A stretch of 64,000 nucleotides of DNA from Psychroflexus longus. Its GTDB lineage: Bacteria > Bacteroidota > Bacteroidia > Flavobacteriales > Flavobacteriaceae. The first letter of the stretch is position 1, and each line of letters starts with the position of its first letter. The DNA lies in contig NZ_JAIQZE010000001.1 in assembly GCF_020164595.1 (NCBI RefSeq), forward strand, positions 434,001-498,000, in the 5' to 3' direction. Below are positions 4,009 to 48,846 of this stretch, one piece after another. A program made the position numbers and the translations under genes. The notes under the pieces are model-generated. The model saw nothing but the letters and a program-made list of their open reading frames with translations, was not told the DNA's origin and ran no database searches.

Positions 4009-4127
4009 AGAATAGTTTTAAAAGGCAAAGTAGAAAAGATATTTTAAATAAAGGATATTAAATGTAAAGAGATTTTTTTGTTGCTTGAATTTTGTTGCTT
4101 GAATTTTGAAGAATTCTATCTAAAAAT

Positions 4128-24168: not shown

Positions 24169-24185
24169 GGTTTTAAGTTTGTTAT

Positions 24186-24421
24186 TGAACTAACTTGCGT
24201 AACTTAGGAGGTAGGTTCAACCTAATAGATTGAGATAAAATAATTGCTTCTGTTCATTTTTTCTTGACAAAAAACGAACCAAAAAGTCAAGCCTGATTTA
24301 AGGAAATTTTTGCTTCGTTACTCTACGCAAAACCCCTGCTGGCTTATTCGCTTCATGCCTGTTACTTCGTAACGCACTTCCGCGAAAGCCACAGGTATTT
24401 CTGGAAATCAGTCGGCTTTCT
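24186..24421. repeat. Mosaic structured element 1 (core type 2)
   Basis: Starts with a TTGCGTAACTTAGG-type leader, then the 5' stem GTTCATTTTTT (24252-24262) / AAAAAACGAAC (24269-24279), then a core of about 130 bases (24291-24420) that is nearly the same as 48592-48717. The core is closed by CTGATTT/AAATCAG and holds a GTTAC-TTC-GTAAC hairpin. Confidence 0.6.
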
Positions 24422-24474
24422 ACTAATTAGATATTTACTATTTTAATTTATGTGAAATTTAGTCTTAAACATGT

Positions 24475-24540
24475 AATAACGGATGTCTCCTCGAGTGTTT
24501 TCATGGAGTAAGACGGAATGAAAAAGTATCGAGAGGTGGT
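24475..24540. repeat. 65-base hairpin repeat, copy 1
   Basis: CTCGA (24490-24494) pairs with TCGAG (24529-24533) and TTTTCAT (24498-24504) with ATGAAAA (24518-24524). Near-identical copies are at 27648-27712 and 29197-29262, same orientation. Confidence 0.75.
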
Positions 24541-24550
24541 TTCGGTGTTT

Positions 24551-24604
24551 TATCCCTGCTATACCCTAAGTATCCCCCTAGTATCCCCTAAGTATCTCCC
24601 TAGT
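24551..24604. repeat. 11-nt tandem repeat
   Basis: About five units of TATCCCCCTAG-like sequence in a row, degenerate, one unit short by two bases. No other copy was seen in the window. Confidence 0.6.
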
Positions 24605-24831
24605 TGACTATTTTATTTTAAGCGTGTATTTGGGTACTGGTATAATCGAATAGTCGTATAATGTTGCATGTTGACAGTTTTTTGTCCTAGCCTGTAGAGC
24701 CCTGAATAGGATTGACCTTTTTTAGAGTTGTTTATTTAATTCGAAGTTATTAATTATTTGCTGCTTTAGATTCTGCAAGAGCAGAATGTATTCCTAAGAA
24801 TGAGTTAGTTTTAACAGCCCATAGGATTCTA

Positions 24832-25023
24832 TTACATAATTTCCAAAAACTCATCTTTACTGATGTTGTAGTATCTACAGAATTCGCTAAGCGTAACGGG
24901 CTGGTGTTTTTGTTTTTGAAATTCCTGACGTACATCAGAAATGTACTGACGTGCCTGACGAGTGCCTATTCCGAAGAAGGCTTCTATGTCTGCTGCTCTT
25001 ATTACACGTCTTTTGGTCATCAC
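24832..25023 (-). CDS. Small basic helix-turn-helix-like protein, unknown
   Basis: A 63-residue protein. Residues about 8-40 (RAADIEAFFGIGTRQARQYI) read like a winged or MerR/excisionase-type helix-turn-helix, with a second short helical motif near the C-terminus (SEFCRYYNISKDEFLEI). Such small proteins occur in Bacteroidetes accessory regions; I do not recognise a named family. It lies upstream of repeats and downstream of the unknown 25210-26331 gene in the same direction, with 186 bases between. Either of the two initial Met codons could start it. A DNA-binding role is inferred only from the helix pattern. Confidence 0.6.
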   Translation of the reverse strand: MMTKRRVIRAADIEAFFGIGTRQARQYISDVRQEFQKQKHQPVTLSEFCRYYNISKDEFLEIM

Positions 25024-25209
25024 AATAACTCAATAAACTCCAAATTTAAAAGCAAACTATAGCATAGGGTGTGACAACTCAAGAGAATTTAGTCACATAA
25101 CTCGTTAATTTTTAGGCCATTAAAAATTTATTTATTTCAATTTTACTCCCAATTGTGGAAAGTTTTAATGTTGAGGTCTCAAAACCAGATAGGTGAGTCC
25201 CAAGAGTGG

Positions 25210-26331: not shown

Positions 26332-26382
26332 TTTTATGTCAAATTTGGTTATAAGATAAAAATAAACTTTTTTCGGTTTTGG

Positions 26383-26600
26383 GTTCTTGATTTTAGTTTA
26401 TTCTGAGCGAAATCCCAGTGATACATGTTCTCGACTCCGCTCGAACTTAAACATATAAGAGTTCTCGACTTTAGTTTATCCTGAGTATGGTTCCAGCTAG
26501 AATGGTTCTCGACTTTAGTTTATCTTGAGCAAGCTTCAAGTGATAACGGTTCTCGACTTTGGTTTATCCTGAGCATGGTCGAAGGGCTTGAACTTAAACA
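26383..26600. repeat. 44-nt tandem repeat, about five units
   Basis: Units begin GTTCTCGACTTTAGTTTATC at 26383, 26427, 26461, 26505 and 26549; spacing is 44 bases except for one unit shortened to 34. The second unit has the variant GACTCCGCTCGAAC, which also occurs near 18292. Confidence 0.8.
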
Positions 26601-26743
26601 AAGAAGGAATGAATGTTTAGACTTTTTGGTTAAGCTCATTGGAGACTTAGTTCAACAGAAGTATCGAGTAGTTTGATGTTAGAGGGTCAGACGAGGTTTC
26701 GATACATCCGCCTGAGGCGGATACTCAACCACCGGTTTTTAGT

Positions 26744-27030
26744 TTGTTATTGAGCTAACCTGCGTAACTTAGAGTGTAGGCTAAACCTGACAGGTTTCGA
26801 TAAGGCTATTGCTTTCTTTCTTTTTTGCATTGCCCAAAAAAGAACCAAAAAACGCTAGGCTCGCTAAAAAAACATAAGAAAACCCTACGGAATCCCCAGC
26901 CACAGATAAAAAATAACTCATCACGCCAAAAAGCGTGACTCAAACCCGCCTGAATGGAACGGGCAGGCAGATTTTTATCTTTTAGCCACCTCTGCTTCCT
27001 TGTTTTTCAATGTTTTTTTAGTAGGCCGGG
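26744..27030. repeat. Mosaic structured element 2 (core type 1)
   Basis: Leader AACCTGCGTAACTTAGAG, 5' stem TTCTTTTTT (26818-26826) / AAAAAAGAA (26836-26844), then a 156-base core (26871-27026) almost identical to 27401-27556. In the core AGATAAAAA (26904-26912) can pair with TTTTTATCT (26972-26980), enclosing a TCACGC/GCGTGA hairpin (26921-26938). Ends TAGTAGGCCGGG. Confidence 0.65.
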
Positions 27031-27220
27031 GTTTTATGAGCCGTTTTCATTGGTGCTTCGATACATCCGCCTGAGGCGGACACTCAGCCACCGGTTTTAG
27101 TTTTTAGTTCTTCGTTTTTAGTTGATCGTGTATTTGTGTAATTGTATACTGGTATAATTGTGTAGCGAGGTTTCGATACGTCCGCCTGAGGCGGACACTC
27201 AGTCAATGGTTTTTAGTTTT

Positions 27221-27560
27221 TTATTGAGCTAACCTGCGTAACTTAGAATGCAGGTTCAGCCTGACAGGTTTTGATAAGGCTATTGCTTTCATTCTTTTTT
27301 TAGTTCACCCCAGTTGTTACTGATTAAGTGTTCATGAATCTCGTTCCTCGATTTCCATCGCTGAAAAAAAGAACCAAAAAAAATCTAGGCTGACTAATAA
27401 AACATAAGAAAACCTTACGGAATCCCCAGCCACAGATAAAAAATAACTCATCACGCCAAAAAGCGTGACTCAAACCCGCCTGAATGGAACGGGCAGGCAG
27501 ATTTTTATCTTTTAGCCACCTCTGCTTCCTTGTTTTTCAATGTTTTTTTAGTAGGCTGGG
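27221..27560. repeat. Mosaic structured element 3 (core type 1)
   Basis: Leader with an AACCTGC/GCAGGTT hairpin (27231-27256), 5' stem TTCTTTTTTT (27292-27301) / AAAAAAAGAA (27364-27373) with a 62-base insert in the loop (GTGTTCATGAATCTCG...), then core type 1 at 27401-27556. The insert is shared with the elements near 46300 and 48500. Confidence 0.65.
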
Positions 27561-28149
27561 TTCTATGATCCGTTTTCAATCTGGCTTCGATACATCCGCT
27601 TAAAGCGTTCACTCTGCCACCGGTTTTTAGGTTACTTGTCTGGAAAGAAATAACGGATATCTCCTCGAGTGTTTTCATGGAGTAAAACGGAATGAAAAAG
27701 TATCGAGAGGTGGTTTGATGTTAGAAGATCTGAGGAGGTTTCGATACAAATTCCACTTTTTCCAAAAAAAGTTAAATCCACTTAACCTGACATGCTTTCA
27801 ATATTTTTTAGTAGGCCGGGTTTTATTATCCGTTTTCAATGCGGCTTCGATACATCCGCCTGAGGCGGACACTCAGCCACCAGTTTGGATTCTGTTCCAG
27901 ACACGGAATGATGGTGAACTATTGTGCGGTTTTGTGCAGTATGGTGCAGTCTGGAAATTAAGCTCTTTTTATGCTTCTATGTTTGTGTTGTAATTCTTTA
28001 AAAACACAAAATATGAGATAGCAATTTTCGAAAAAAAGAGACAGGATGTGCCAGGATTAATGCCTTTCCTGAGCCATCGATGAATCCCATTTATCAACTC
28101 TGCAGATGACCAAGGCAAACATTATTTAAACAATTTAAATTTTATTATT

Positions 28150-29382: not shown

Positions 29383-30003
29383 TTATAAATGGAACTTGAT
29401 AGGTTTTGCAGGATTACCTACAACCTTAGCTCCATCTGGTACATCTTTTAAAATTACAGCGCCAGCACCAATTATACAATTGCTGCCAATTTTAAGATTA
29501 GGAATCACTATAGCGCCAGCACCAACATGAGTTCCGTTTCCAATACTCACCCCTCCACAGATGCAGGCTTTTGGAGAGATGTGCACAAAATCTCCAATTT
29601 CACAATCATGCTCAACAACAGCCCCAGAATTAATAATACAATGTTTACCAATTTTAGTCGAAGCGTTTATAACCGCCAAAGGCATGACTACACTTCCTTC
29701 CAGGATTTCGGTTTCTTCTGAAATTTGTGCAGAACTGTGCACTAAAGCTTTAGAAAATGAGCTTGAAGCCAATTGGTTCACTAGTTGCTCTCGCAGGAGG
29801 TTGCTGCCAACACTAATGATTAATGGATACTCATTTAATTTATCCTGATGCACTGAAGGTGACAAGACCTCACGATCTAATAAGGTTGTAACTGAAGTAT
29901 CATCGTCAAATATGTAAGCCACCTCAACGTCTTTCAAAGTCGATATAATGTCTAAAATGACTTTAGCGTGACCGCTGGCTCCGTATAGATTTATTGTATT
30001 CAT
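29383..30003 (-). CDS. PglD/NeuD-like sugar O- or N-acetyltransferase
   Basis: A 206-residue protein with an N-terminal Rossmann-like sugar-binding part (NLYGASGHAKVILDI) and a C-terminal left-handed beta-helix of hexapeptide repeats (about 95-195, ending GAGAVILKDVPDGAKVVGNPAK). This is the NeuD/PglD acetyltransferase type, which acetylates a UDP-4-amino-sugar or sialic acid in glycan synthesis. It follows a PglC-like transferase in the same direction, as in bacillosamine-type loci, but the usual PglE aminotransferase is not next to it; the cluster ends here at repeats. Acceptor not certain. Confidence 0.88.
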   Translation of the reverse strand: MNTINLYGASGHAKVILDIISTLKDVEVAYIFDDDTSVTTLLDREVLSPSVHQDKLNEYPLIISVGSNLLREQLVNQLASSSFSKALVHSSAQISEETEILEGSVVMPLAVINASTKIGKHCIINSGAVVEHDCEIGDFVHISPKACICGGVSIGNGTHVGAGAIVIPNLKIGSNCIIGAGAVILKDVPDGAKVVGNPAKPIKFHL

Positions 30004-30026
30004 TTATTAATTGAAATTTACTTTAT

Positions 30027-30192
30027 GCAAGATGCTGAAATAAATTCAGCATGACAAAGATATGGTTCAGCATGACAAGGAAGATCCTGAAACGAGTTGA
30101 GGATGACAATGGTTTGGAACAGGATGAGAGATGCTGAAATAAATTCAGCATGACACAATGATTTTTTTGTCACCCTGAATTTATTTCAGGGT
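30027..30192. repeat. Cluster of REP-like CTGAA...TTCAG palindromes
   Basis: Stem TGCTGAA/TTCAGCA at 30033-30051 and 30132-30150, variant TCCTGAA/TTGAGGA at 30085-30103, and an inverted CCCTGAA/TTCAGGG at 30173-30191. Each is followed by a GATGACA or GTGACA flank. The arms switch between T-GC, T-CC and C-CC starts together with their partners. Confidence 0.8.
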
Positions 30193-30197
30193 CTGTT

Positions 30198-30812
30198 TCA
30201 GTGTCTGTTTCTATTCCCTTCAAATTTCTGAGCGGTGGCCTGCCCACCTTGATTGATGCCTTCGGACTTGATCACTTTTTTCAAGGTCAATATCAGGATC
30301 TGTAAGTCAAACATAAAACTTTGCTTGTTGACATAGTCTACGTCTTTTTCAAACTTTCCCTGCCAGGATAAGGCGTTTCTGCCATTGACCTGTGCCCAGC
30401 CAGTGATGCCCGGTTTGACTTCATGGCGTTTTCGTTGTTGATCATTGTATAAAGGTAAATATTCTGGCAGTAAAGGTCGTGGTCCGACTAAGCTCATATC
30501 GCCTTTCAATACATTAATCAATTGCGGCACTTCATCCAAGGAGGTTTTCCGTACAAACTTACCAACAGCGGTAAGCCGATCTGAATCTGGAAGCAATTGC
30601 CCATCCTCACCTCTTTTATCATTCATCGTTTTGAACTTAATGATTTTAAAAATTCGTTCATACTGGCCTGGTCGTTGTTGAAAAAAAAAGGGTTTACCCT
30701 GATTGGCTATGGCTAACAAAAGTGTCACGATGATAAAAATCGGACTCAACACTAGTAAGCCGATAAGGGCGGTGAGGAAGTCAAGTAAAGGTTTTATGAG
30801 GTTTTGGTACAT
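30198..30812 (-). CDS. PglC/WcaJ-like initiating sugar-phosphate transferase
   Basis: A 204-residue membrane enzyme that transfers a sugar phosphate from UDP-sugar to undecaprenyl phosphate, starting polysaccharide repeat assembly. One N-terminal membrane helix (about 8-35), then the bacterial sugar transferase domain: QQRPGQ, FKIIKFKTM, the KTSLDEVPQ catalytic Asp-Glu, MSLVGPRP and KPGITGWAQVNGRN. The short form fits PglC rather than multi-helix WcaJ. The last residues (EGNRNRH) and stop run into a REP-like palindrome at 30173-30191, so the tail may have been replaced by repeat sequence. Confidence 0.93.
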   Translation of the reverse strand: MYQNLIKPLLDFLTALIGLLVLSPIFIIVTLLLAIANQGKPFFFQQRPGQYERIFKIIKFKTMNDKRGEDGQLLPDSDRLTAVGKFVRKTSLDEVPQLINVLKGDMSLVGPRPLLPEYLPLYNDQQRKRHEVKPGITGWAQVNGRNALSWQGKFEKDVDYVNKQSFMFDLQILILTLKKVIKSEGINQGGQATAQKFEGNRNRH

Positions 30813-30891
30813 TTTGGTTAGTGACTAGTTGATATGTAAGATGCTGATCTTGATAGCTGTCGGGACAGGATGACAAGTAAAATAACGCGTG

Positions 30892-31257
30892 TCACCCTGA
30901 ACCTGCCTGACTGCGACACGCAGGCAGGCTTGTTTCAGGGTCTAGGTCTGGGTCCTTGCCTAAAGGCTTATACAAATCCTTCCACTCTGGATTATCCTGT
31001 TCTATTAAATTTATTTTCCATTGTCGATGCCAATTCTTTAACTGTTTTTCTCTTGCAATAGCATCTTCAATGTACTGAAACTCTTCAAAATAAACCAAGC
31101 GTTTTAGTTTGTATTTTGAAGTGAACTGACTGCCCTCTCCTTTTAGATGTCGCTCCATCCTGTCATCTACTCCACCGGTTACGCCGATGTATAAAGTTCC
31201 TCTTGGCTTGTTTGTGAGGATATACACAGTATAATTATGATGGCTTCGTTTGGGCAT
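30892..31257 (-). CDS. GIY-YIG nuclease family protein framed by REP-like repeats
   Basis: A 121-residue single-domain GIY-YIG protein of the small UPF0213/YhbQ-like type. YTVYILTNK and LYIGVT form the GIY and YIG strands, Arg33-type residue in DRMERH, the catalytic Glu in AIAREKQLKNW, and NPEWKDLY closes the domain. The last 20 residues (from DLDPETSLPACRSQ on) and the TGA stop are encoded by a REP-like palindrome carrying a nested hairpin (30895-30940). Another REP lies 15 bases upstream of the ATG. It interrupts the polysaccharide genes, which otherwise overlap or abut, so it looks inserted. Active site seems intact. Substrate unknown. Confidence 0.88.
   Translation of the reverse strand: MPKRSHHNYTVYILTNKPRGTLYIGVTGGVDDRMERHLKGEGSQFTSKYKLKRLVYFEEFQYIEDAIAREKQLKNWHRQWKINLIEQDNPEWKDLYKPLGKDPDLDPETSLPACRSQAGSG
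30895..30940. repeat. REP-like palindrome with nested hairpin
   Basis: Outer arms CCCTGAA (30895-30901) and TTCAGGG (30934-30940); between them a second palindrome of CCTGCCTG...CAGGCAGG type (30902-30928). Related nested hairpins occur without the outer arms, for example near 51880. Confidence 0.75.
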
Positions 31258-31271
31258 AGAAACATTTAAGA

Positions 31272-31433
31272 TGCTGAAATAAATTCAGCATGACAAAATA
31301 AGTTTATTTGTGAGGAGATACACAGTGTAGTTGTGATGGCTTCGTTTGGGCATTATATGTTAGATCCTGAAACGAGTTCAGGATGACAAGTAAATAAAAT
31401 AACGCGTGTCACCCTGAATTTATTTCAGGGTCT
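31272..31433. repeat. REP-like palindromes around the truncated GIY-YIG copy
   Basis: TGCTGAA/TTCAGCA at 31272-31290, TCCTGAA/TTCAGGA at 31365-31383 and CCCTGAA/TTCAGGG at 31412-31430. The first and second each lie about 12-15 bases upstream of a GIY-YIG start codon; the third supplies the stop of the next gene. Confidence 0.8.
31285..31353 (-). pseudogene. 5' remnant of a duplicated GIY-YIG gene
   Basis: The first 17 codons (MPKRSHHNYTVYLLTNK) match the start of the GIY-YIG gene at 31257 with only a few base changes, then the reading runs into the REP at 31272-31290 and stops. Its upstream spacing to a REP is the same as in the intact copy. Confidence 0.8.
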
Positions 31434-32638
31434 AGTTCAGGTTCAAGACCCAGATCTTTCCCCTTATCTTTCAACAAACATTTATACTCCACCAACAAAG
31501 CCTCCCACACCAATTGTTGTTCATATCTTGAGGTAATCATATCTCTGGCGTTGCTTTTTAATTCCTGATATTGGTCGGGATCCTGTACTAATTTTAGCAT
31601 GGCTTGTTGTAAATCAAGTTGCAAGGCATTGGATGGTGAGGTTCCCGCCTTCGCGGGAACTATAATACCATTTTTGCCGTCTTCTATAATTTCATTACAG
31701 CCGTTGATATCACTCACGATACTGGGTAAGCCCATCGCTCCCGCCTGCATGACCACATTGGGAAAGCCTTCGCGGTAACTGGGGAATACCAAGGCATTCG
31801 CTATGGCGAAATACGGCCGAACATCCTCCTGAAAGCCTGTGGTGATAATATTGGGGTTGGATTCTATTTCTTTTAAGGTTTCAGGTTGTAAAGGATCGAG
31901 TTCGGATTCTAAAGGACCAACCAGTAATAATTTCAAATTTTGAATTTCAAATTTTAAATTTTTAAAAGCAGCAACAAGCTCATTGATCCCTTTGTCTCCG
32001 ACCAGGCGACCGACGAAAATAAACACAAACTCTTTTTCTTGCATGCCAAGTTGCTGTCGTAAAGCCTGGTTTTGCTGTTGGGTGTAAATTTCTGGATTGA
32101 AATGTGAAGTATCGATGCCGTTGGAACTGCCATTAGCAATGACTTTTACTTTCTCTGCTCGAGCATAATTATTTTGAAGTATAAAGTCATATAAGCCCTG
32201 ACTATTAGGATAAATTCGTGTCGCGTAGGCATAAGTCAATTTCTCGACCGCATCTAAAACTTTACGCTTAATTCCCGAAGCTTCCATGAGTGGCATGCCT
32301 GCCACGGTGTGCAAACGAATAGGAACACCAGCTAGATTTGCCGCCAGCATGCCTAAAATTCCAGCTTTGGGCGTATGCGTGTGGACTATGGCAGGTTTCT
32401 CTTTCCTAAATAAACGCATGAGCTTAACTAAAGACATCACATCTTTAACTGGTGTGATTTGACGGGTCATCTGGATTTCTTTCACCTTTACTTGTTCGTA
32501 AACAGACACTTTTTCCAGTTCTTCTTTGGGTCCTGAAGACACACACAGCACCTCAAAAAATGCACTCATAAACCTGGGCTGACCTTTGATTAAAAACTGA
32601 AGGGAAAGTGGCACCGTGGTGAGGCGGAGGAGTTTCAT
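31409..32638 (-). CDS. Family 4 glycosyltransferase
   Basis: A 409-residue GT-B glycosyltransferase. The N-terminal domain has HTHTPKAGILGMLAANLAGVP, typical of GT4 enzymes acting on undecaprenyl-linked sugars; the C-terminal GT4 domain has FIFVGRLVGDKGI and the donor-binding FPSYREGFPNVVMQAGAMGLP motif (EX7E type). It would add the second or later sugar to the lipid-linked repeat. The C-terminal residues (DPEINSG) and the TGA stop are encoded by a REP-like palindrome (31412-31430), as with the GIY-YIG gene. Sugar specificity cannot be read. Confidence 0.92.
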   Translation of the reverse strand: MKLLRLTTVPLSLQFLIKGQPRFMSAFFEVLCVSSGPKEELEKVSVYEQVKVKEIQMTRQITPVKDVMSLVKLMRLFRKEKPAIVHTHTPKAGILGMLAANLAGVPIRLHTVAGMPLMEASGIKRKVLDAVEKLTYAYATRIYPNSQGLYDFILQNNYARAEKVKVIANGSSNGIDTSHFNPEIYTQQQNQALRQQLGMQEKEFVFIFVGRLVGDKGINELVAAFKNLKFEIQNLKLLLVGPLESELDPLQPETLKEIESNPNIITTGFQEDVRPYFAIANALVFPSYREGFPNVVMQAGAMGLPSIVSDINGCNEIIEDGKNGIIVPAKAGTSPSNALQLDLQQAMLKLVQDPDQYQELKSNARDMITSRYEQQLVWEALLVEYKCLLKDKGKDLGLEPELDPEINSG

Positions 32639-32643
32639 TTTGA

Positions 32644-34082: not shown

Positions 34083-34083
34083 T

Positions 34084-39229: not shown

Positions 39230-39338
39230 GAAAAAATCAAATATGCCAGATCTTTTTAGGTCTGTTTAATACTAGTCTTGGTTTTACAGGTTTTAAAATT
39301 CAATGAACAATAAATCCATTAAGAGATCCTTAAACACA

Positions 39339-40397
39339 TTAATAATCGAAAAAATCAATAGCAAATTTCAATCGATTAGAAGCATAATCTAAATCTGATT
39401 TTTCCATATCATCAACATAATAATTCATTTTCTTTGGATCTATAGATATATTTCCTGAATATTTAGTTTGATCTAATTCTAAAAACTTACTAAGTTCCTT
39501 TTTTTTAAACTCAAAAGCCAAATCTTCAAGCTTTACAAAGAGATAATTATTACAAGACTTATACTCTTGATGAATATCAATTAGGCGTTTATAGAGTTCT
39601 GATAGCAAATCGCAACGCTGTTTCAAATTACTTGGCGCCCAAACCATGCGTTCCATGGAGTGAACTACTCCAACTGGATGTCTCATGACATGTATATATT
39701 TTCCATTAGGAAAAAGCTTCTGAAGAAAATTTATATTTAAGATATTTGAAGGTGTATCTTCACACCAAATTTTAGCATTACTTTCCTGTTCTAAAACGTC
39801 TGTAAATATATCTAGAATAAAAGCTTTAAGGTATTGCAAAAGTTCATCTTTCTCTCTAAAGTATTTTGGAATATAAATGGTTTCCTTTGATGTTTCCCTT
39901 TCTATAGAATTATCTAAAACAGATAATCTCTCTCCTATTGCCAAGTAACTTAGTTTACTTAAAACACGATTTAATGGCGAAAGTGTTCTTCGAAAATGGT
40001 GTTTGTAGACAAATTTATCATTAGAGTGAAAATCCAAGCCTTCAAATGTTCCTAAAGATAAATTAGAGATTAAAACTTTTGTAGCTTTTTTCAAAGTCGA
40101 ACTTTTAATTAAACCGCTACGATTCCAACCCAAATAAGGTGCTTTATAAGGGTTTGACATTTGTTTCAATACTTTTTCTTCAAAAGCTCTTATTGCAATT
40201 CTTCCTTGATCAATGGAATAGTTATTTGACAAGGCTTCATATAAATCAATTAATCCATTTTTGTCAACAATAAATCGGCTTTCCACTGGAATTTTCACAC
40301 CCTGCTCATTACTTCCTATAAATTGAGATAAAATAGTGGTCCCACTCCTTCCGGTTCCTCCAATAAAAATTGGAGTTAAGTTCTCGTATTTATGCAT
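39339..40397 (-). CDS. Sulfotransferase family protein
   Basis: A 352-residue protein with the PAPS-binding sulfotransferase signatures: PIFIGGTGRSGTTILSQFIG (5'-phosphosulfate loop) near residue 10 and YIHVMRHPVGVVHSME (3'-phosphate site) near 235. In a surface polysaccharide operon it would add sulfate to a sugar hydroxyl using PAPS, giving a sulfated exopolysaccharide, common in marine bacteria. Sulfate-activation genes are not in the window. Good family match; acceptor unknown. Confidence 0.9.
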   Translation of the reverse strand: MHKYENLTPIFIGGTGRSGTTILSQFIGSNEQGVKIPVESRFIVDKNGLIDLYEALSNNYSIDQGRIAIRAFEEKVLKQMSNPYKAPYLGWNRSGLIKSSTLKKATKVLISNLSLGTFEGLDFHSNDKFVYKHHFRRTLSPLNRVLSKLSYLAIGERLSVLDNSIERETSKETIYIPKYFREKDELLQYLKAFILDIFTDVLEQESNAKIWCEDTPSNILNINFLQKLFPNGKYIHVMRHPVGVVHSMERMVWAPSNLKQRCDLLSELYKRLIDIHQEYKSCNNYLFVKLEDLAFEFKKKELSKFLELDQTKYSGNISIDPKKMNYYVDDMEKSDLDYASNRLKFAIDFFDY

Positions 40398-40405
40398 CTT
40401 GAGTT

Positions 40406-41503
40406 TTAAAACGGTTCTAAAATAGATTGTATTTTCTTTATTGAATCTTTACCTAATCCTACCCATAAGGGTAAGCTAATCATGGTTCTAGCTAATTCCT
40501 CCGCAATGGGAAAATCGCCTTCTTTATAGCCTAAATGTTTATAAGCATTTTGGAGATGTGGTGGAATGGGATAATGAATTAGCGTCCCTATGCCATTATT
40601 GTTTAAATGAGCCTGTAACTCATCGCGCTTTTGGGTTCTCACTACATAAAGGTGATAGACGTGATCTGCGTTATTAGCAACTTGTGGTAATATTAAATTC
40701 GTATCTTTTAGTTGCTTATTATACATTTCAGCTATTTGTTGTCGCTCTTGTGTCCATTGGTCAAGGTATTGTAATTTAACTGATAGAAAAGCCGCTTGTA
40801 ATTCATCTAAACGTCTGTTGAGGCCAATGTATTCATTATGATACTTTTTCTGGCTACCATAATTTCTAAGGGTTTTTATTTTTTCGGCAACTTCTTCATC
40901 ATCTGTGGTTATGGCTCCTGCATCACCAAGCGCACCAAGGTTTTTTCCCGGGTAGAAACTTACCCCATTGACGTGTCCAAAACTTCCTGTTAGTTTCCCC
41001 TTATAACTAGACCCATGGGCTTGCGCATTGTCTTCTACCACAACTAAGTTATAAGCTTCAGCCAGCTTCATGATGTGATCCATCTCACAGGCCTGCCCAT
41101 ACAGATGCACCGGCATGATTGCCTTTGTCTTTTTGGTAATCTTCTCTTCTATCAACTCAGGATTAATGTTATAAGTCTCTAGTCGCGGTTCAACAAAAAC
41201 TGGCGTGGCTCCAACGGCTGTAACGGCTAGCACTGTGGCGATATAGGTGTTGGATGGCACAATGACTTCATCGCCCTTACCAACACCAAGAGCTTCCAAG
41301 GCAAGAATCAAAGCATCCAGCCCATTGCTTACACCTACACTGTACCTGGTTTGATTGTATTTCGCGTAGCTAGCTTCAAAAGTGTGAAGTTTTTCGCCCA
41401 TGACATACCAATAGCTTTCATACACCTCATTAAAAGCTTGCTGCATTTCAGAGCGGATTTGCTCGTGCATGGGTTGAAAATTGAGAAAAGGTATTTTTTT
41501 CAT
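40406..41503 (-). CDS. fdtB: DegT/DnrJ/EryC1 sugar aminotransferase (FdtB-like)
   Basis: A 365-residue PLP-dependent enzyme that aminates a keto-sugar nucleotide. PLP-binding Lys lies in [17 protein letters not shown] near residue 185; [30 protein letters not shown] and [14 protein letters not shown] are family motifs. The FdtA-type isomerases and acyltransferase next to it point to the 3-amino-3,6-dideoxyhexose route from dTDP-4-keto-6-deoxyglucose (FdtB/QdtB type). Its gene shares one base with the acyltransferase gene. Symbol assigned by context. Confidence 0.92.
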
Positions 41504-42054
41504 TAGGCTTTACTTAGGGATTGGTTTTGTTCTATCCAAATTTGACCTTGATTATCCTCAAATTTAAAATCTTTTATTTTTTTCATCTGGGTACCGTTTT
41601 CTGATAGCCAACCTATTAGTCTTGAGGGATTGCCTACTACTAATGCACGGTCAGGAATATCCTTAGTCACTACACTTCCAGCACCTACCATAGCGTATTT
41701 ACCTATATTTAATCCTCCTAAAATTGTGGCGTTTGCACCGATAGACGCCTTTTCTTGAATTTGCGTTTGTAGAAACTGATCTGGATACTGTTTGGATCTC
41801 GGAAGCTTATCATTAACAAAGGTCACGTTCGGCCCTATAAATACGTCGTTACTAATTCTCAATCCGTCCCAGATTTGAACTCCTGGTTTTATAGTCACTC
41901 GATCGCCTATAATAACATCATTTTCAATAAACACATGACAATTAATATTACAATGATCGCCAATCACCGCATTTTTTAATACGATTGAAAATTGCCAGAC
42001 ACTCGTGTTTTGGCCGATATTCTCAGCTTGTACCTCCGCTAATTTATGTATCAT
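41503..42054 (-). CDS. fdtC: Fdt-type dTDP-amino-sugar N-acyltransferase
   Basis: A 183-residue left-handed beta-helix acyltransferase. Hexapeptide turns run from about residue 20 ([33 protein letters not shown]) to 160, with [11 protein letters not shown] and [27 protein letters not shown]. This is the pattern of dTDP-3-amino-3,6-dideoxyhexose N-acetyltransferases (FdtC/QdtC). It lies between aminotransferase and isomerase genes with short overlaps, so the three probably form one route. Confidence 0.87.
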
Positions 42055-42463
42055 TTTTATAACTTATAAAATCTTGATAACCTCTGATGTAATCTTTTTC
42101 ATCATACGTATGCGAAGCTAAAACCAAACAAATCGCTCCAGATGAAAAATTATTGATTTCACGCCAAAGTCCAGCGGGAAAGTAAAGACCTTTGTTTGGT
42201 CTGTTGAGGGAAAAAGTTTCTTTCTTAGTTCCGTCATCAACCACAATATCAAAACTACCTGAAACAGCTACAATAAGCTGTTGTAATTCTTTGTGAGCAT
42301 GTCCCCCTCTTTCTTCTCCACTTGGCACATCGTATAAATAATAAACCCGTTTAACTTCAAAAGGGACTTCTCTATTGTTTTCCACCACCGAGATATGCCC
42401 TCGTCGGTCTCCAATCTGGTCAATTTTAATCAACTTACAATCGTCTACAGTTGTTGGTTTCAT
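42044..42463 (-). CDS. fdtA: dTDP-4-keto-6-deoxyglucose 3,4-ketoisomerase (FdtA-type cupin)
   Basis: A 139-residue single-domain cupin. [42 protein letters not shown] and [24 protein letters not shown] are the FdtA/QdtA family blocks; the Tyr in YYLYDV and the His-Ala-His pair match residues described as catalytic in that family. It shifts the keto group from C4 to C3, giving the substrate of the aminotransferase. It overlaps the acyltransferase gene by 11 bases and abuts a paralogous cupin gene. Confidence 0.92.
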
Positions 42464-42852
42464 TATAAGTCATTTATATTTCTGATATAATCTTGAGTAT
42501 CAAATTTATGACTGGACAGATGTAAAGATACGGCATTGGTAGAATGGTTTTCTATATGTCGCCAGGTTTTGGGCGGGATATAAATGGCGTTATAAGAGCG
42601 ATTGAGTTGGAGTGTTTCTTTATCTCCATTCTTGTGAGTTATGATCACATCAAAACTCCCAGATAAGGCAATAATAATCTCTTCCTGTTGGTGATAAGCA
42701 TGTCCTCCTCTTTGTTGTCCACCAGGCACATCGTAAGTCCAAAACACACGTTCCACCTTAAAAGGGATGTGCGATATCTCCTGAAGAAACGTCAGATTAC
42801 CTCGATCATCTTCGATTTTAGGGAGGTTTAATTGTTTTACTTCTTTAAGCAT
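42463..42852 (-). CDS. Second FdtA-like cupin, HAH changed to HAY
   Basis: A 129-residue paralogue of the neighbouring FdtA protein, sharing one base with its gene. Family blocks are intact (DDRGNLTFLQEI, VERVFWTYDVPGGQQRGGHA, IYIPPKTWRHIENHS), but the His-Ala-His pair reads His-Ala-Tyr. It may have different stereochemistry (FdtA versus QdtA type outcome), act as a partner subunit, or be losing function; sequence alone does not decide. Confidence 0.85.
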   Translation of the reverse strand: MLKEVKQLNLPKIEDDRGNLTFLQEISHIPFKVERVFWTYDVPGGQQRGGHAYHQQEEIIIALSGSFDVIITHKNGDKETLQLNRSYNAIYIPPKTWRHIENHSTNAVSLHLSSHKFDTQDYIRNINDL

Positions 42853-42881
42853 TTTTTATTTTAAAATTATTAGCAGCTTAA

Positions 42882-44324
42882 TTATTTGCTCATAAGGTAT
42901 TTTGAGTATGAAATAATATTTTTTTTAAAGAGTAAAATATAACCTATAAATACAATAGAAAAAAGAATTGCTTTTAGAATCAAGGCAAAAACATCTAATA
43001 AATCTAAGCTTTGAAACGTAAATAAAATTATTAATGTTCCCAAAAGAATAATCGCCAGATCTTTAAAAATAAGTGATAAGAATTGATTCAAATTTATATC
43101 AAATAAAGGTTTAATTATGAATGTATATATTGGAAAAATTATAATTATAGTTTGAATTAAGATACCAACTGAAATTCCTAAAATCCCCCAATAACTTCCT
43201 ATATAAATCGTTATTAAATTCATTGGTAACATAATTAAATTATTATAAAACCCCCATTTAGCTTTACCACTTGCTAACATGGCTTGTCCAAAAAAAGATT
43301 GCATCGTCCTAAAGATAAAAACCAAAGCTAAGATTTGTAAAACATAATAACTTTCTGACCATTCATCGCCTAAAAAAAGTCTTGTGATTTCTGGTGCAAC
43401 TAAAGCTATTCCAATAAGAATTGGAATTCTAATAGCATTTAATAACTCTAATATTTTTTTAAACATTTGAGTGACTCTTAATTTATCCTCATGCACTTTT
43501 GCCATCAATGGATAAGTCACCTTTTGAATGATCGGAGACAGTAATCTTATAGGTTGCTGAACAATACGTTTAAAAACATCATAGACACCTAATTCTCCAA
43601 CACCAATAAATTTTCCAATTAAAATTGAATCTAGTTGTGTGTTTAAAAAACTTACTAAAAAAGATCCCGTTCTAAATGAACCAAAATTAAGAAAGTATTT
43701 TACTTCTTTTAAATTAAAGTATAATCTTGGAATATGTGCTTTTAAGCCTGTTATAAGTAATAATATAGACTTTACTCCCGTTCGCGCCAATGTTCCCCAA
43801 ACCAAGGCATAAACACCATAACCTAAATAAGCCATACTTAAAGTAACACTTAAATAAACTGTAAACGCAATAATATCTAAGCTTGCCATCAGTTTAAAAC
43901 GAAGTTCTTTCTGCAACAAAGCTTGATATTGTGCACTTAAACCCGAAAATAAAAAGCTAAAACTAACTAAGCCTAGGAGTTTGGGGAGCTCAGCTTCTTC
44001 ATAAAAATCACCAATAAACCCCTTACTAGCATTGATTACCAAAAAAACAAGTAATGCTAAAAAAATATTTACCCAATATAAAGTAGATAGCTGTTTCTTA
44101 TTGATTTCCTGTTTCTGGATGATGGCTTGGCTTATGCCTATGTCAACAAATTCAGCAGAAAAACCAACAACTATGTTCACTAAAGCAAAAAGTCCAAAGT
44201 CCTCTTTACCTAATATATTGGTTAAAACTAATATTAACACAAAGCTGCCCCCAGCTGTGAATATAGAAGATAAACCAGTCCATTTTACGCCACTTACAGC
44301 TTCTTTTTTATAGCTATTCTTCAA
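42882..44324 (-). CDS. Wzx-type polysaccharide flippase (WzxC-like)
   Basis: A 480-residue membrane protein with 12-14 helices of the MATE-like polysaccharide transport family. The N-terminal SGVKWTGLSSIFTAGGSFVLILVLTNILGKEDFGLFALV and the IDSILIGKFIGVGELGVYDVF middle block fit the WzxC subtype. It flips the lipid-linked repeat unit to the periplasm, working with the Wzy polymerase at 34084. Three bases separate it from the upstream cupin gene. Confidence 0.9.
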   Translation of the reverse strand: MKNSYKKEAVSGVKWTGLSSIFTAGGSFVLILVLTNILGKEDFGLFALVNIVVGFSAEFVDIGISQAIIQKQEINKKQLSTLYWVNIFLALLVFLVINASKGFIGDFYEEAELPKLLGLVSFSFLFSGLSAQYQALLQKELRFKLMASLDIIAFTVYLSVTLSMAYLGYGVYALVWGTLARTGVKSILLLITGLKAHIPRLYFNLKEVKYFLNFGSFRTGSFLVSFLNTQLDSILIGKFIGVGELGVYDVFKRIVQQPIRLLSPIIQKVTYPLMAKVHEDKLRVTQMFKKILELLNAIRIPILIGIALVAPEITRLFLGDEWSESYYVLQILALVFIFRTMQSFFGQAMLASGKAKWGFYNNLIMLPMNLITIYIGSYWGILGISVGILIQTIIIIFPIYTFIIKPLFDINLNQFLSLIFKDLAIILLGTLIILFTFQSLDLLDVFALILKAILFSIVFIGYILLFKKNIISYSKYLMSK

Positions 44325-44327
44325 GAT

Positions 44328-44672
44328 TTACTTCCTATCATAATCATCTTCTAGCCTTACAATATCGTCTTCCCCAAAATACGTCCCCAGTTGAACTTCG
44401 ATAAACAGACAGTCTTTAGTTTTAGAGGGGTTTTCAATTCTGTGTTTTATGCCCTGAGGAATTTTTATCACCTCTCCGGGGTTGTAATCTTGAGTTTTAC
44501 CGTCTAAGGTAATTCTTCCTGTTCCACTTACAATGGTCCAGACTTCAGAACGCTTGTGATGGTATTGGTAGGAGAGTCTGCCTTTGGGTTTTATCTTAAT
44601 TCGCTTTACTTTATGCGTTGCCGAGTCTTCTAACACAAAATATTCTCCCCAGGGTCTGATGTCGTGTTCCAT
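44328..44672 (-). CDS. Mannose-6-phosphate isomerase type II-like cupin
   Basis: A 114-residue cupin matching the C-terminal isomerase part of ManC/WbpW-type proteins: RPWGEYFVLEDSATHKVKRI, PKGRLSYQYHHKRSEVWTIVSG and NPGEVIKIPQGIKHRIENP with the metal-binding His, His, Glu, His pattern. The stand-alone half suggests mannose-6-phosphate isomerase activity, feeding GDP-mannose. I chose the ATG at 44672: an upstream ATG (44753) adds 27 residues encoded by a dispersed intergenic repeat (44695-44732), so is not real coding. No guanylyltransferase half is nearby. Confidence 0.85.
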   Translation of the reverse strand: MEHDIRPWGEYFVLEDSATHKVKRIKIKPKGRLSYQYHHKRSEVWTIVSGTGRITLDGKTQDYNPGEVIKIPQGIKHRIENPSKTKDCLFIEVQLGTYFGEDDIVRLEDDYDRK

Positions 44673-44694
44673 GTTTTTAATTTTTTTTCCATTT

Positions 44695-44732
44695 CGATAA
44701 ACAGTAAACTGGCAACGCTCAACTTTTTCACT
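44695..44732. repeat. CGATAAACAGTAAACTGGC repeat
   Basis: 38 bases matching 46566-46603 with few changes. It fills the gap between the UDP-glucose dehydrogenase gene and the cupin gene and creates a false N-terminal extension of the latter. Confidence 0.75.
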
Positions 44733-44749
44733 TCCGCAAAAAACTGATA

Positions 44750-46162
44750 TCACTTTACTGCAGTATTACTTTTCCCGAGGCTAAACAATTGAAACCCGAT
44801 TTTTGTCAAATTTTTGAGGTCTAGAATACCTCGTCCATCAAATACAAAAGCAGGCTTCATCATATTCTCATATACCTTTTGCCAGTAGTAAGCAGCAAAC
44901 TCGTCCCATTCTGTCAGTATGGCTACGGCATGGGCCTCTTTCATGGCTTCATAAGGATTACTGACTACAGTGATGCGTTTATGGATAGCTTCCGGATCCA
45001 GTGTTCCCAGATTTTCCAGGTCGGTTATGATTTGTGCTTTCTTGACCTTGGGATCGTAAATGCTGATGTTGGCCTGTTCCTGGAGTAATTTTTCAGCCAC
45101 GTAAATGGCTGCAGACTCCCTGGTATCATTGGTGTCTTTTTTAAATGCCCAGCCCAGAAACGCAATTTTTTTGTCAGCTACCGTATTATACAGCGTTTTT
45201 ACGATTTTTCGGGCAAAGCGGTGCTTTTGGTAGTCGTTCATAAGGATGACCTGCTCCCAGTAGTCGGCGACTTCCTGCAGACCCAGCGAACTTGCGATAT
45301 ACACTAAATTAAGTATGTCTTTTTGGAAACAGGAGCCTCCAAAGCCCACCGAGGCTTTCAGAAATTTGGATCCGATACGGCTGTCCATGCCAATAGAGCG
45401 GCTTACCTCGGAGACGTCTGCTCCAGTGACTTCACAGAGCTCTGAAATTGCATTGATGGACGATACCCGTTGTGCTAAAAAGGCGTTAGCCACCAATTTG
45501 GATAATTCTGAAGACCAGACGTTGGTCGTCAAAATGCGCTCCTGTGGCAACCAACTGGCATAAATATTGACCAGCTGCTGCATGGCTTCCCGTCCTTCTT
45601 CAGTATCATCACCGCCTATAAGCACGCGATCGGCATTTTGCAAATCCTGTATGGCCGTTCCTTCTGCAAGAAACTCAGGATTGGAGAGAATCTGGTAACT
45701 GACTCCGTTACCCGTATTGTGGAGTATGCTTTTTAAAGCCTCTGCGGTTTTAACAGGTAGTGTTGATTTCTCAACGATGATCTTATCATCTTTAGCCACC
45801 CGCGCAATTTGTCGGGCACACAGTTCGATATACTTCAGGTCAGCCGCTTTGCCTTTCCCTTCTCCGTAGGTTTTGGTGGGAGTATTGACCGAAATAAATA
45901 TCATATCGGCTTTATCTATCGCTTCATCTACTTCTGTAGAAAAGAAAAGATTCCTGCCGCGTGCTTCTTTCACCACCTCAGCCAGTCCCGGCTCGTAGAT
46001 GGGTAAATTATCTAGATTGTCATCATTCCAGGCGTTGATTCGGGCTTCATTAAGATCTACGCAGGTCACTTTTATATGTGGATTCTTTTGTGCAATGACT
46101 GACATGGTTGGCCCCCCAACGTAACCAGCTCCTATGCAACAGATGTTTGTTATGTTTTTCAA
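44750..46162 (-). CDS. ugd: UDP-glucose 6-dehydrogenase
   Basis: A 470-residue nucleotide-sugar dehydrogenase that makes UDP-glucuronate with two NAD+ reductions. [16 protein letters not shown] is the NAD-binding start; catalytic Cys lies in [21 protein letters not shown] near residue 278; [17 protein letters not shown] and DPKV are present in the C-terminal part. The GGPT start and length resemble the eukaryote-like Ugd branch. It is first in the minus-strand polysaccharide cluster, so its promoter region, a repeat-rich gap, probably drives part of the operon. Confidence 0.95.
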
Positions 46163-46261
46163 TTTTTTATTTGTTTATGGTTGACAGTTTTCAGTGGCTA
46201 GTGATTTGTGACTGGTGATTAGTAACTGATTATTTTTTTAGTTTTGAGTTTAATGTTATCT

Positions 46262-46515
46262 CTTAAATTGAAGCTTTCATTACTTTTTGTAGCTCACCCG
46301 CGACTTTATTGTTTTAAGTGTTCGTGAATCTCGTACCTCGATTTCATCGCCGCAAAAAGTAATCAACAACCCCGATAGCTATCGGGGAGGCTTATTTTTA
46401 TGTCTTTGAAAACTACAAAAGTGTTTCCTCCACGCAGTGCCAACCGTTGCACTAGGGCACTGCTCCTCTTCCTTCCATCACCACTTTCTTGTTTTGACTA
46501 CATCCATAAAAAGTA
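46262..46515. repeat. Mosaic structured element 5 (core type 3)
   Basis: 5' stem ATTACTTTTTG (46279-46289) / CAAAAAGTAAT (46353-46363), perfect over 11 bp, with the GTGTTCGTGAATCTCG insert in its loop; then CCCCGATAGCTATCGGGG (46370-46387) and core 3 with GCAGTGC (46434-46440) / GCACTGC (46457-46463). Ends AAAAAGTAGGCC. Confidence 0.65.
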
Positions 46516-46934
46516 GGCCATATCTTTTAATTCAGAAATAAATTTCACTAGTGATAATTTTTTATCGATAAACAGTAAACTGGCAACGGTCAACTCTTTC
46601 ACTCAATACTCACTTCCAGGAACGGCTTCGCCGCGGTGAGTCCCATAAGTGGGAGCACCGTAGCTCATTGTCTACATCACTACAACGTTGAAAAATGAGA
46701 TCCTAAGTCAGTGTTAGCCTAGCGATTTGGCCTTTTGTCATGAAGAAATAGGATAAATTTTTCACTAGTTAAGTAGCATATAGATTTGGTGGTGCAAAGT
46801 AGGGGAGTTTCTTAAAAAAAACCAAAGGAATTGGAAAGTATTTTTTGTGTAGTCGTGTAATGGTGTAGTCGAGTAGTCGTGTAGTTGAGGAGTTTTTAGT
46901 CTGAGAGTCAAAGGGTCGAGGAGTGAGCTGTTGA

Positions 46935-46971
46935 ACTGGTAGACTGGTGTACTGGTTGACTGGTAGACTGG
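46935..46971. repeat. ACTGGTAG-type 8-nt array
   Basis: Four 8-base units ACTGGTAG, ACTGGTGT, ACTGGTTG, ACTGGTAG and a partial fifth, in register. A shorter relative lies near 48207 and scattered units near 52300. Confidence 0.75.
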
Positions 46972-47437
46972 AGATTAATTTTAAATTATGAATTGAGAAT
47001 TTTTAATTTTTTGGTAAATGTGACTTCGATAGAATTCTCCAGAGGTCAAATTACCAGCCCAATTAGGTCATTCAGGCGGAGTCAGCCACTAGTTTTTGTT
47101 GGTCATTGAGCCTGCCCGACTAGTCATTCAGGCGAGTGGTCCGCCTATGGCGGATGTATCGAAATGACGTTAATTTTTATATTCCTTTTCACAATTACAC
47201 GCTAAACTGAACACTGACAACCGACGACTGTTTTTTCTGCATCCATAAAAAGTAGGCCATTTTCACTATACTACTATTCCACTACTCCATTACTCAACTA
47301 CACGGTGAACAGTGAACTAAAAACAGTCAACTAACTTACATCTATAGAAATAACTCAAGTTTATACATTCACCAAAGAATTAAAAACTACTCTCCCTTAA
47401 GCTTTTTAATTTCAACCACAAGCACTGGTATGTTTTT

Positions 47438-47725
47438 TTAAATGATTCCCCAGAGCATTTCTGGTTCGACTGAATCATAAGCATGAGCGATGATATTTCT
47501 CAATCCAATGATGTGTTTGGAAGATGAGATTTCAGCATCAGGTTTCAATTCAAGGATTTTCCGAACGGCTTCACCGATAATTTCTAAATCCCGTTCTATA
47601 GCCCTCTGGAGAATAATGTCATCAGAAAAATTAATGAAGTTATTTTCTGTTCTCAATTTTATAGATTCGATTTCAGCTATTACTGTTTCAATATCTAATA
47701 TGTATTTGAGAAGTTTAGGCTGCAT
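47438..47725 (-). CDS. hepT: HepT-family HEPN toxin, truncated by an in-frame stop
   Basis: A 95-residue HEPN/DUF86 protein. The RNase motif R-X4-H-X-Y is intact in LRNIIAHAYD, as is the ERDLEIIGEAVRKIL helix. HepT is the toxin of the HepT/MntA system: an RNase in the HEPN fold, silenced by AMP groups added to the motif Tyr by MntA. The protein ends at LWGII and TAA, but the same frame continues as KNIPVLVVEIKKLKGE to a TAG at 47387, which fits the usual family C-terminus. One base change from AAA to TAA would explain this, so the gene is likely shortened by a nonsense mutation. Start overlaps mntA by 11 bases. Confidence 0.85.
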   Translation of the reverse strand: MQPKLLKYILDIETVIAEIESIKLRTENNFINFSDDIILQRAIERDLEIIGEAVRKILELKPDAEISSSKHIIGLRNIIAHAYDSVEPEMLWGII

Positions 47726-48023
47726 ACAAATCTACTTTGGATTGATAGATGTGTTCTTTTAAGATCGGGTTTTTTAGTGATTTAGCTGAAACTAGATCTA
47801 CATTCTTGTTTAGAAGTTCTTCCAGATTCTTGAGTAAAGAAAAATAGTTATCTGCGTAATCCAAAACATTTATCTGATCTGAAAACTCAACTAAAAAGTC
47901 AATATCGCTTTCAGCGTGCATTGTGTTATTAGCAGCAGAACCAAAAAGAGAGACTGACTCTACCTTATGCTGTTTACAGACAGTGATAATCTCATCTAAT
48001 TTATTTTGCACCAAGTCTACCAT
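47715..48023 (-). CDS. mntA: MntA-type nucleotidyltransferase antitoxin
   Basis: A 102-residue minimal nucleotidyltransferase. The GSX10DXD motif is complete (LFGSAANNTMHAESDIDFLV), with a third carboxylate expected near KNVDLVS. In characterised pairs MntA adds AMP to a Tyr of HepT, blocking its RNase. The gene overlaps the hepT gene by 11 bases, the usual layout. It appears intact while the toxin is truncated. Confidence 0.88.
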   Translation of the reverse strand: MVDLVQNKLDEIITVCKQHKVESVSLFGSAANNTMHAESDIDFLVEFSDQINVLDYADNYFSLLKNLEELLNKNVDLVSAKSLKNPILKEHIYQSKVDLYAA

Positions 48024-48093
48024 GTTTCAAATATAATTTAAAATATCCATAAGTCTTTTGGGCCTGAGTTTGAATGATGGAGTTGCTGGTTTT

Positions 48094-48157
48094 TCGTGTA
48101 GTCGTGTAATGGTATAATGGTGTAGTCGTTTATTCGTGTAGTCGTGTAGTGGTGTAA
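48094..48157. repeat. 8-nt degenerate tandem array, eight units
   Basis: Eight units in exact 8-base register: TCGTGTAG, TCGTGTAA, TGGTATAA, TGGTGTAG, TCGTTTAT, TCGTGTAG, TCGTGTAG, TGGTGTAA. The consensus T-S-G-T-R-T-A-R recurs in at least twelve other places in the window. Confidence 0.9.
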
Positions 48158-48451
48158 TTGGGGAGTTTTTAGTCTGAGAGTCAAAGGGTCAAGGAGTGAG
48201 CTGTTGAACCGGTAGACTGGTTGACTGGAGATTAATTTTAAATTATGAATTGAGAATTTTTAATTTTTTGGTAAATGTGACTTCGATAGAATTCTCCAGA
48301 GGTCAAATTATCAGCCCAACTAGGTCATTCAGGCGGGTGGCCTGGCGATAAAGAGGGTGCACTTCGACTTCGCTCAGCAGAGCTATTGAAATGATACTGG
48401 TTCTTCTTTTACTTTTTAGTTCACCTGTTATTTATATTTGATTTACTCTTA

Positions 48452-48846
48452 CAACCTAAAAATTTCGTTAAAGTTGATGTTTTCATTCATTTTTTAGTTC
48501 ACCCACTTTGCTATTGATCAAGTGTTCATGAATCTCGTACCTCGATTTCCATTGATGAAAAAACGAACCAATCCCCAAAGCTTTGGGGACTAGACTGATT
48601 TAAGAAAATTTTTGCTTCGCTACTCTACGCAAAACCCCTGCTGGCTTCTTCGCTTCATGTCTGTTACTGCGTAACGCACTTCCGCGAAAGCCACAGGTGT
48701 TTCTGGAAATCAGTCGTTTTCAATAAAAAGCAATGCTTCATCTATGATTAGTTTCAGCAAACCCAGAACATTTCACTAGGGCATTGCTCCTCTTCCTTGC
48801 TTCACCACTTTCTTGTTTTCATACATCCATAAAAAGTAGGCCGGTT
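48452..48846. repeat. Mosaic structured element 4 (cores 2 and 3)
   Basis: 5' stem TTCATTTTTT (48486-48495) / AAAAAACGAA (48558-48567) with the GTGTTCATGAATCTCG insert in the loop, then CCCCAAAGCTTTGGGG, core type 2 (48592-48717, matching 24291-24420), and core type 3 with GCAATGC (48730-48736) / GCATTGC (48781-48787). Ends AAAAAGTAGGCCGG. Confidence 0.65.

Follow-up and report, generated by a model that had tools for sequence, protein, structure and literature searches.

A modular, structured intergenic element of Bacteroidia, dispersed and apparently unnamed

Five repeated elements in a 64,000-nucleotide stretch of the Psychroflexus longus genome (hereafter the window; G000:C1:434001-498000, from a genome of 2.95 Mb) belong to a family of non-coding elements that is widespread in Bacteroidia and apparently unnamed. 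Taking the evidence as a whole, we lean towards reading them as copies of a dispersed, non-coding, modular structured element of RNA type, either selfish or acting in stability, and we favour such an element over a regulator of any one pathway. An initial annotation of the window had listed the five elements, and on reading the sequence we found them where it had placed them, all in one orientation; what we add here is the probable strand, the pseudoknot, and the extent and unity of the family.

On the plus strand, on which the initial annotation was made, an element runs from a small T/A hairpin through an A-rich linker to CTAGGC (or GTCAAGCC), followed by a core that usually ends in TAGGCC. 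On the minus strand, which we think is the one that folds, the element would begin with 5'-GGCCTA, rise as a long rod, built of stacked helices and variable at its tip, return to AGCCTAG, and pass through a T-rich linker into the hairpin; the hairpin loop would pair back with the linker as an H-type pseudoknot, and the last part would be the A-rich arm. What had been described as a variable core is this rod, and it holds most of the structure.

Distribution, family unity and covariation

BLAST with one of the five elements (element 3) gave matches in 15 of 60 genomes, its own included, all of one genus. A pattern of hairpin plus linker reached further, with at least 119 stretches in titled genomes, mostly of Flavobacteriaceae genera (these include Aequorivita, Arenibacter, Leeuwenhoekiella, Bizionia, Maribacter, Tamlana, Galbibacter and Oceanihabitans); the few matches in unrelated assemblies may be due to chance. 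Within the family, 34 of 299 genomes (29 of 236 genera), P. longus among them, carry this pattern. The hairpin form of element 1, which we call d-class, was sought across the class and matched in 56 of 395 genomes (35 of 196 genera); the reversed control pattern matched nothing in either survey.

Elements were resolved from 179 matches to the hairpin followed by CTAGGC. Core ends were sought within 300 bases, and dropping 45 matches that had no end or weak end pairing left 134 elements, a few of them chance matches, which hallmark sequences divide into 25 of type I, 51 of type IV, 45 of type III and 13 unclassified. The commonest core lengths are 127-159 bases. The type IV core used alone as a query matched in 21 of 249 family genomes, and among the 24 matches listed (of 29), 22 had, by eye, the same hairpin or its right arm upstream. 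Type II cores were found in 8, and type III cores in 10, of the 27 genomes of the genus.

That these forms belong together is suggested by a covariance model, R1, built from 38 type IV elements. The best E values of R1 are 1.6e-20 among type I copies and 3.9e-16 among type III copies, and it matches d-class copies in other families of the class (e.g. L262 and L264) with E of about 1e-19, although many of the searched loci had been fetched by the hairpin pattern, so that the hairpin's share of those scores is expected; extra copies in the same loci (e.g. L258:2175 and L268:531) had not been fetched by that pattern. Among 41 control loci R1 gave one weak match (E 0.018). In the window, always on the minus strand, it finds element 2 (65.2 bits, E 1.3e-13), element 3 (43.1 bits over 27343-27558) and, weakly and in part, element 1 (24252-24344, E 0.0022). 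Elements 4 and 5 were unmatched at E<=0.1, probably owing to their long inserts.

Comparison of relatives shows that the pairings of both rod and pseudoknot covary. In an alignment of 38 type IV relatives (38 of 48 references, leaving out seven further copies of loci or genomes already used together with L104, L155 and L210), 34 of the 48 pairs have two-sided changes and 95.2% of cells are paired. The covariation score is 0.334, compared with 0.131 after shuffling (0 of 500 reach 0.334) and at most 0.078 for slid structures; significance was judged by these shuffle and slide controls. An alignment of 16 type I relatives (of 18 references, leaving out L001 and L052) has two-sided changes at 14 of its 46 pairs. 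The rod comprises about 38 pairs, of which the terminal GGC/GCC pairs are nearly invariant; an internal loop, AACTC..TCAAACAG on the plus strand, is by eye common to types I and IV, and the fold of one minus-strand copy is more stable than those of its shuffles (z -3.5). Because changes on the two sides of the helices are paired across relatives, base pairing is under selection, as the initial annotation had argued from five copies.

These compensatory changes also speak against the possibility that the repeats are remnants of a protein gene or a chance similarity. The reversed-pattern controls stayed empty, and only 2 of 98 elements overlap a long open reading frame (ORF), one of these being an unclassified and probably chance match. 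We give this possibility next to no weight. The two outcomes by which the initial annotation would have been refuted, a lack of covariation over many copies and an origin in one protein gene, were thus not borne out.

The probable folded strand and the pseudoknot

The initial annotation had taken the small hairpin for a stem at the 5' end. We think it more probably forms the 3' end of the opposite strand, because G.U pairs and gene orientation both point that way. The covarying stem GTTCATTTTTT/AAAAAACGAAC that it had proposed contains an A.C mismatch on the plus strand, which becomes a G.T pair on the other. More generally, the non-Watson-Crick pairs, read on the minus strand, are mostly G.U (35 vs 12 A.C; binomial p 0.001). 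Structures predicted on the plus strand and then read on the minus strand lean the same way in type IV (30 G.T vs 14 A.C) and type III (23 vs 6); this comparison used 25+50+44 distinct cores of the 134, leaving out 13 unclassified cores and two duplicates. Immediately outside the tract, 46 distinct hairpins have a G.T pair in 11 cases and C.A in one; one pair further out, T.G and C.A occur twice each.

For gene orientation we surveyed 98 of the 134 elements. One neighbouring gene was missing from the fetched stretch for 33, and the remaining 65 could be placed, a few of them unclassified or chance matches (e.g. L133 and L144). Between co-directional genes the sense strand is the minus strand in 24 of 31 cases, and in 35 of 46 (p 0.0005) when the d-class set is pooled with these; a type IV set was kept out of the pool for its possible overlap with the first set. 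Folding energy was discarded as evidence on the strand: the minimum free energy is lower on the minus strand in 112 of 134 cores, and dinucleotide shuffles give an equally large difference (6.1 vs 5.5 kcal/mol).

Where the initial annotation saw a plain stem, the hairpin is instead an H-type pseudoknot, its loop pairing with the linker. In the d-class the loop reads CTTGAX and the linker YTCAAG, and X and Y are Watson-Crick partners in 131 of 137 listed matches (80 T/A, 32 A/T and 19 C/G); the other six comprise one C/A and one A/C, both G.T on the minus strand, three C/C and one C/T. Counted per genome, at the first places listed of each, X and Y are complementary in 60 of 65 vs 31.1 expected. 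The corresponding three-pair helix of the main class (helix 9) has 87.7% of its cells paired and covaries, with U-A in 20 and C-G in 16 at one pair. In Bizionia, tandem copies with near-identical cores have, by eye, swapped loop GCC/linker CG for loop GAT/linker AT.

The lengths of the two tracts are also related. In 27 distinct sequences the A-run of the linker tracks that of the stem (rho 0.76, 0 of 5000 permutations as high), the stem and linker runs being (5,5) in four, (6,6) in 13, (7,7) in four, (8,8) in one, (7,6) in four and (6,8) in one. This set holds only loci fetched by ways other than the hairpin pattern; lengths from pattern-fetched loci were rejected as biased, since the pattern fixed the linker length, and a statistic from regular expressions (rho 0.24, p 0.13) was discarded because it had chosen the wrong T-runs. 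In known U.A-U triple-helix pseudoknots a U-run lies beside an A-U stem of matching length, in the same order. Because length and order match here too, the data hint, by analogy, that the U-rich linker may form a U.A-U triple helix by lying along the groove of the A-U stem.

We picture, conditionally, an element that would act as RNA within read-through transcripts, often after the stop codon of a gene, with the triple helix giving it a stable 3' end. Its repeats may spread non-autonomously, by an enzyme supplied in trans or by gene conversion and tandem duplication. A bolder version, which we rate as unlikely, would make it a class-wide selfish RNA: a gene-less, multi-copy genomic parasite of Bacteroidia with an exchangeable rod. 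A U.A-U triple-helix pseudoknot at the 3' end would protect its transcript, and a host- or trans-encoded enzyme, for example a reverse transcriptase, would copy the parasite back into chromosomes.

Several points weigh against an RNA-type element of this kind. First, the argument for RNA function is drawn from comparison and orientation bias, and single-stranded DNA of the same strand would yield much of the same evidence. Second, the alignment that gave the G.U count had been folded as minus strand, a choice that favours G.U; type I, with its structure predicted on the plus strand, has no lean (10 G.T vs 10 A.C); and composition accounts in full for the difference in folding energy between the strands. 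Third, the smaller orientation sets taken singly have no significant bias (d-class 11 of 15, p 0.12; type IV 6 of 10), and the sequences in these sets are related, nearby copies being non-independent. Fourth, the main-class loop-linker pairing is imperfect, its middle pair being mismatched in 12 of 38 sequences, and the triple helix is argued from length matching, with 5 of the 27 sequences discordant. Finally, target-site duplications and a mobilising enzyme were not found.

Ends, module exchange and means of spread

Across 108 loci, TAGGCC has an information content of about 2 bits; the base after it has 0.9 and later bases <0.6, and there is no conserved position within 40 bases beyond TAGGCC; the comparison thus shows one boundary, GGCC, to be sharp. 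The other end is the foot of the hairpin (97 short-loop loci). The 3' end proposed in the initial annotation, TAGTAGGCC or AAGTAGGCC, holds for the elements at 26816, 46280 and 48484, and differs at 27290 (TAGGCT) and 24252 (CAGTCGGC).

Copies are shown to be present or absent at one conserved locus, the 3' end of glnS (named from its translated end), which we located in 25 of the 27 genus genomes and compared in detail in five. G012 has a full element there, between the stop codon of the neighbouring gene and an intrinsic terminator; G024 retains about 34 bases of the element, G003 a hairpin-like remnant and P. longus itself perhaps a dozen bases; in G015 stop codon and terminator have nothing between them. 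This comparison shows either gain or loss. The mobility suspected in the initial annotation is likely in view of dispersal and of such presence and absence, although no insertion into a defined target was captured.

Pseudoknot and rod modules have, as comparison of copies shows, been exchanged: L225, for example, joins a d-class hairpin to a type IV core. Tandem arrays occur in Leeuwenhoekiella, Oceanihabitans, Bizionia and Maribacter, and copies alternate in orientation in G344. An IS200/IS605-derived MITE would share its ends with an autonomous element that carries tnpA/tnpB. In the search for core ends, which extended over 300 bases at most, we noticed no gene lying between a hairpin and its GGCC end; no systematic search for gene-bearing copies was made. 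Spread by viruses was rejected, the main pattern having 0 stretches, and the d-class pattern four, in the viral collection; one type IV query had no match in the plasmid collection.

A different means of spread would be transposition as single-stranded DNA, in the manner of IS200/IS605-derived or REP elements, with a strand-specific HUH (Y1) transposase acting in trans and recognising the fold as DNA hairpins. Strand-specific pairing and G.T pairs suit single-stranded DNA as well as RNA, the right end is sharp, the copies are dispersed and clustered, and P. longus has a Y1 gene just past the window (G000:C1:498702-499007, about 64702 in window numbering). The flanks of six Y1 genes (about 430 bases per side, by eye) nevertheless lack the element and have GGGGC..GCCC-type palindromes in four cases and other short palindromes in two. 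Among the 17 genus genomes covered, a Y1 match (E<1e-15) occurs in 7 of 11 that bear the element and 3 of 6 that do not, G010 having the element without a Y1 match and G008 and G011 a strong Y1 match with no element found. A T-rich pseudoknot is moreover an unusual HUH substrate. We regard transposition of this kind as an unlikely alternative. The Y1 genes themselves (G000:C1:498702-499007 and L331-L336) probably belong to Psychroflexus REP/RAYT systems distinct from this element.

Another alternative is that the element acts in cis, as an RNA regulator or terminator placed in untranslated regions of the genes beside it; the orientation bias and the place of the G012 copy between stop codon and intrinsic terminator would suit this. 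That same copy is followed by a separate terminator, however, and 18 genes whose starts lie at most 150 bases beyond an element have unrelated functions (translations read by eye, without a family search). A needed switch would also not be expected to occur in tandem and in clusters, to leave remnants or to be missing from close relatives, and we think such a role improbable.

The copies in the window and their surroundings

The five elements, all on the minus strand, combine these modules in different ways, and the initial annotation was right to call them mosaic. Element 1 (24252-24416) joins a d-class pseudoknot module to a type II core. The module spans 24252-24291, with arms at 24252-24262 and 24269-24279 and a loop, CTTGAC (24263-24268), complementary to GTCAAG (24286-24291); it is also a match of the d-class hairpin pattern (G000:C1:458263). 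Element 2 (26816-27028) has a short-loop pseudoknot module and a type I rod ending in TAGTAGGCC, and element 3 (27290-27558) a module with a loop insert (about 27302-27354) and a type I rod, 94-96% identical to that of element 2, ending in TAGGCT. Element 4 (46280-46520) consists of a b-class stem with a loop insert (about 46290-46344), a linker with an extra G+C hairpin (46370-46387) and a type III rod ending in AAGTAGGCC. Element 5 (48484-48843) has a c-class stem with a loop insert (about 48496-48548), an extra linker hairpin and a core that matches first type II (94%), the type shared with element 1, and then the second half of type III (92%), so that this copy is a chimera of the two core types.

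The loop insert of about 55 bases noted in the initial annotation is indeed present in three copies, elements 3, 4 and 5, and an exact 25-base pattern drawn from the insert has three matches in the genome, none of them outside these elements. Elsewhere the insert follows a T-run within a core of L107 (about 3812-4075) and is present in L014, a type III copy that is truncated. It appears to be a small separate repeat that enters T-runs. Other palindromes (e.g. CCTGCCTTTGCC..GGCAGGCAGG) sit at the rod tip of L052, L062 and element 2, and the tip appears to tolerate insertions.

The leader that the initial annotation considered shared by all copies lies upstream of elements 1-3 (24186-24240, 26744-26810 and 27221-27285) and is missing from elements 4 and 5; it is a repeat distinct from the element, with a palindrome, AACCTGC..GCAGGTT, upstream of element 3 and close versions upstream of elements 1 and 2. 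A second repeat, TTCGATACATCCGCCTGAGGCGGACACTCAGCCACCGG, with a palindromic middle, adjoins several elements (24132-24175, 26692-26740, 27058-27098 and 27166-27213). A lone end, CTGCATCCATAAAAAGTAGGCC, lies at 47233-47260 without the rest of the element and is taken as a remnant. A 52-base repeat at 24475-24526 and 27649-27700 (96% identity) is unrelated to the elements, and two small adjacent ORFs on the minus strand (47430-48023) resemble, by eye, a HEPN/nucleotidyltransferase toxin-antitoxin pair.

Between the third and fourth elements lies a polysaccharide biosynthesis cluster (29383-46162, minus strand), so that the five elements flank it; the seven ORFs searched gave Pfam matches to EpsG, pyruvyl transferase, DegT, Polysacc_synt_3, UDPG_MGDP_dh, glycosyltransferase and hexapeptide transferase. 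By a non-exhaustive count we recognised nine or ten copies in this genome, complete or partial, and five of them fall within 25 kb around the cluster. Such a setting could suggest a chromosomal recombination or nucleoid-binding DNA site (a cruciform) that promotes exchange around surface-polysaccharide loci; the modules do recombine, and in G021 and G025 clusters of copies adjoin ORFs of the same lengths as the neighbours of the window copies (only lengths were compared). Yet a double-stranded site would neither favour G.U on one strand nor conserve a pseudoknot, and copies elsewhere adjoin genes of other kinds; we find this very doubtful.

The family supplies a pseudoknot backed by covariation, perhaps with a triple helix, and a natural series of module swaps; it may also give access to a new means by which RNA spreads or is protected, in a phylum with a poorly known RNA biology. 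The element is strongly covarying, occurs by a strict exact pattern in about one in nine of the sampled family genomes, and accounts for part of the intergenic repeats around a polysaccharide locus.

Comparison with known systems

The initial annotation knew of no named family with these parts, and our searches agree. Rfam 15 at the gathering threshold gave 0 matches in the window and ten further loci, and a laxer setting on seven more loci gave three sub-threshold matches, the best with E 0.16. No description of the element was found in the titles and opening abstract lines of open-access papers, and subscription papers may hold a name. Flavo-1 and other Bacteroidetes RNA motifs come from a comparative survey of 2010 (PMC2864571, in part); they share the phylum and are likewise candidate structured RNAs, and no Rfam model reached its gathering score in the window or the ten loci.

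Arrays in the same orientation had suggested integron attC sites. The ends of these read RYYYAAC and GTTRRRY, and they come with gene cassettes; the terminal columns here are CTAGGC and TAGGCC, and this identity was rejected.

The STAXI motif consists of tandem pseudoknots in Enterobacteriales (PMC2864571, in part). It resembles the present family in having a repeated pseudoknot structure and differs in taxon; no Rfam family matched the searched loci. Telomerase RNA has a U.A-U triple-helix pseudoknot, and the topology of such pseudoknots, in which loop 1 is U-rich and enters stem 2, an A-U helix of matching length, is the same as proposed here; the likeness is one of working principle only, our family having neither a ligand nor a telomerase context.

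RU-type repeats are equated with ERIC, and we know of no pseudoknot module in either. The enterobacterial RU-1 and RU-2 measure 127 bp and 168 bp (PMC2759123, in part). ERIC/RU repeats are alike in size class, in intergenic place and in resembling miniature inverted-repeat transposable elements, and come from another phylum.

The REP elements, GTAG- or CGTC-tagged palindromes associated with RAYT transposases, are, like this family, dispersed, clustered, palindromic and chromosomal, and G.T pairing has been reported in their stems (PMC3733652, in part). The (A)GTAGGCC end does contain GTAG, but inside the terminal paired region, and often as ATAG. In REP systems the RAYT gene is flanked by the repeat itself, whereas the six Y1 genes here have other palindromes at their flanks. 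We therefore do not identify the family with REP/RAYT: a REP is a single short hairpin with a GTAG or CGTC tag, while this element combines a multi-helix rod of about 38 pairs with a pseudoknot and has TAGGCC as its right end.

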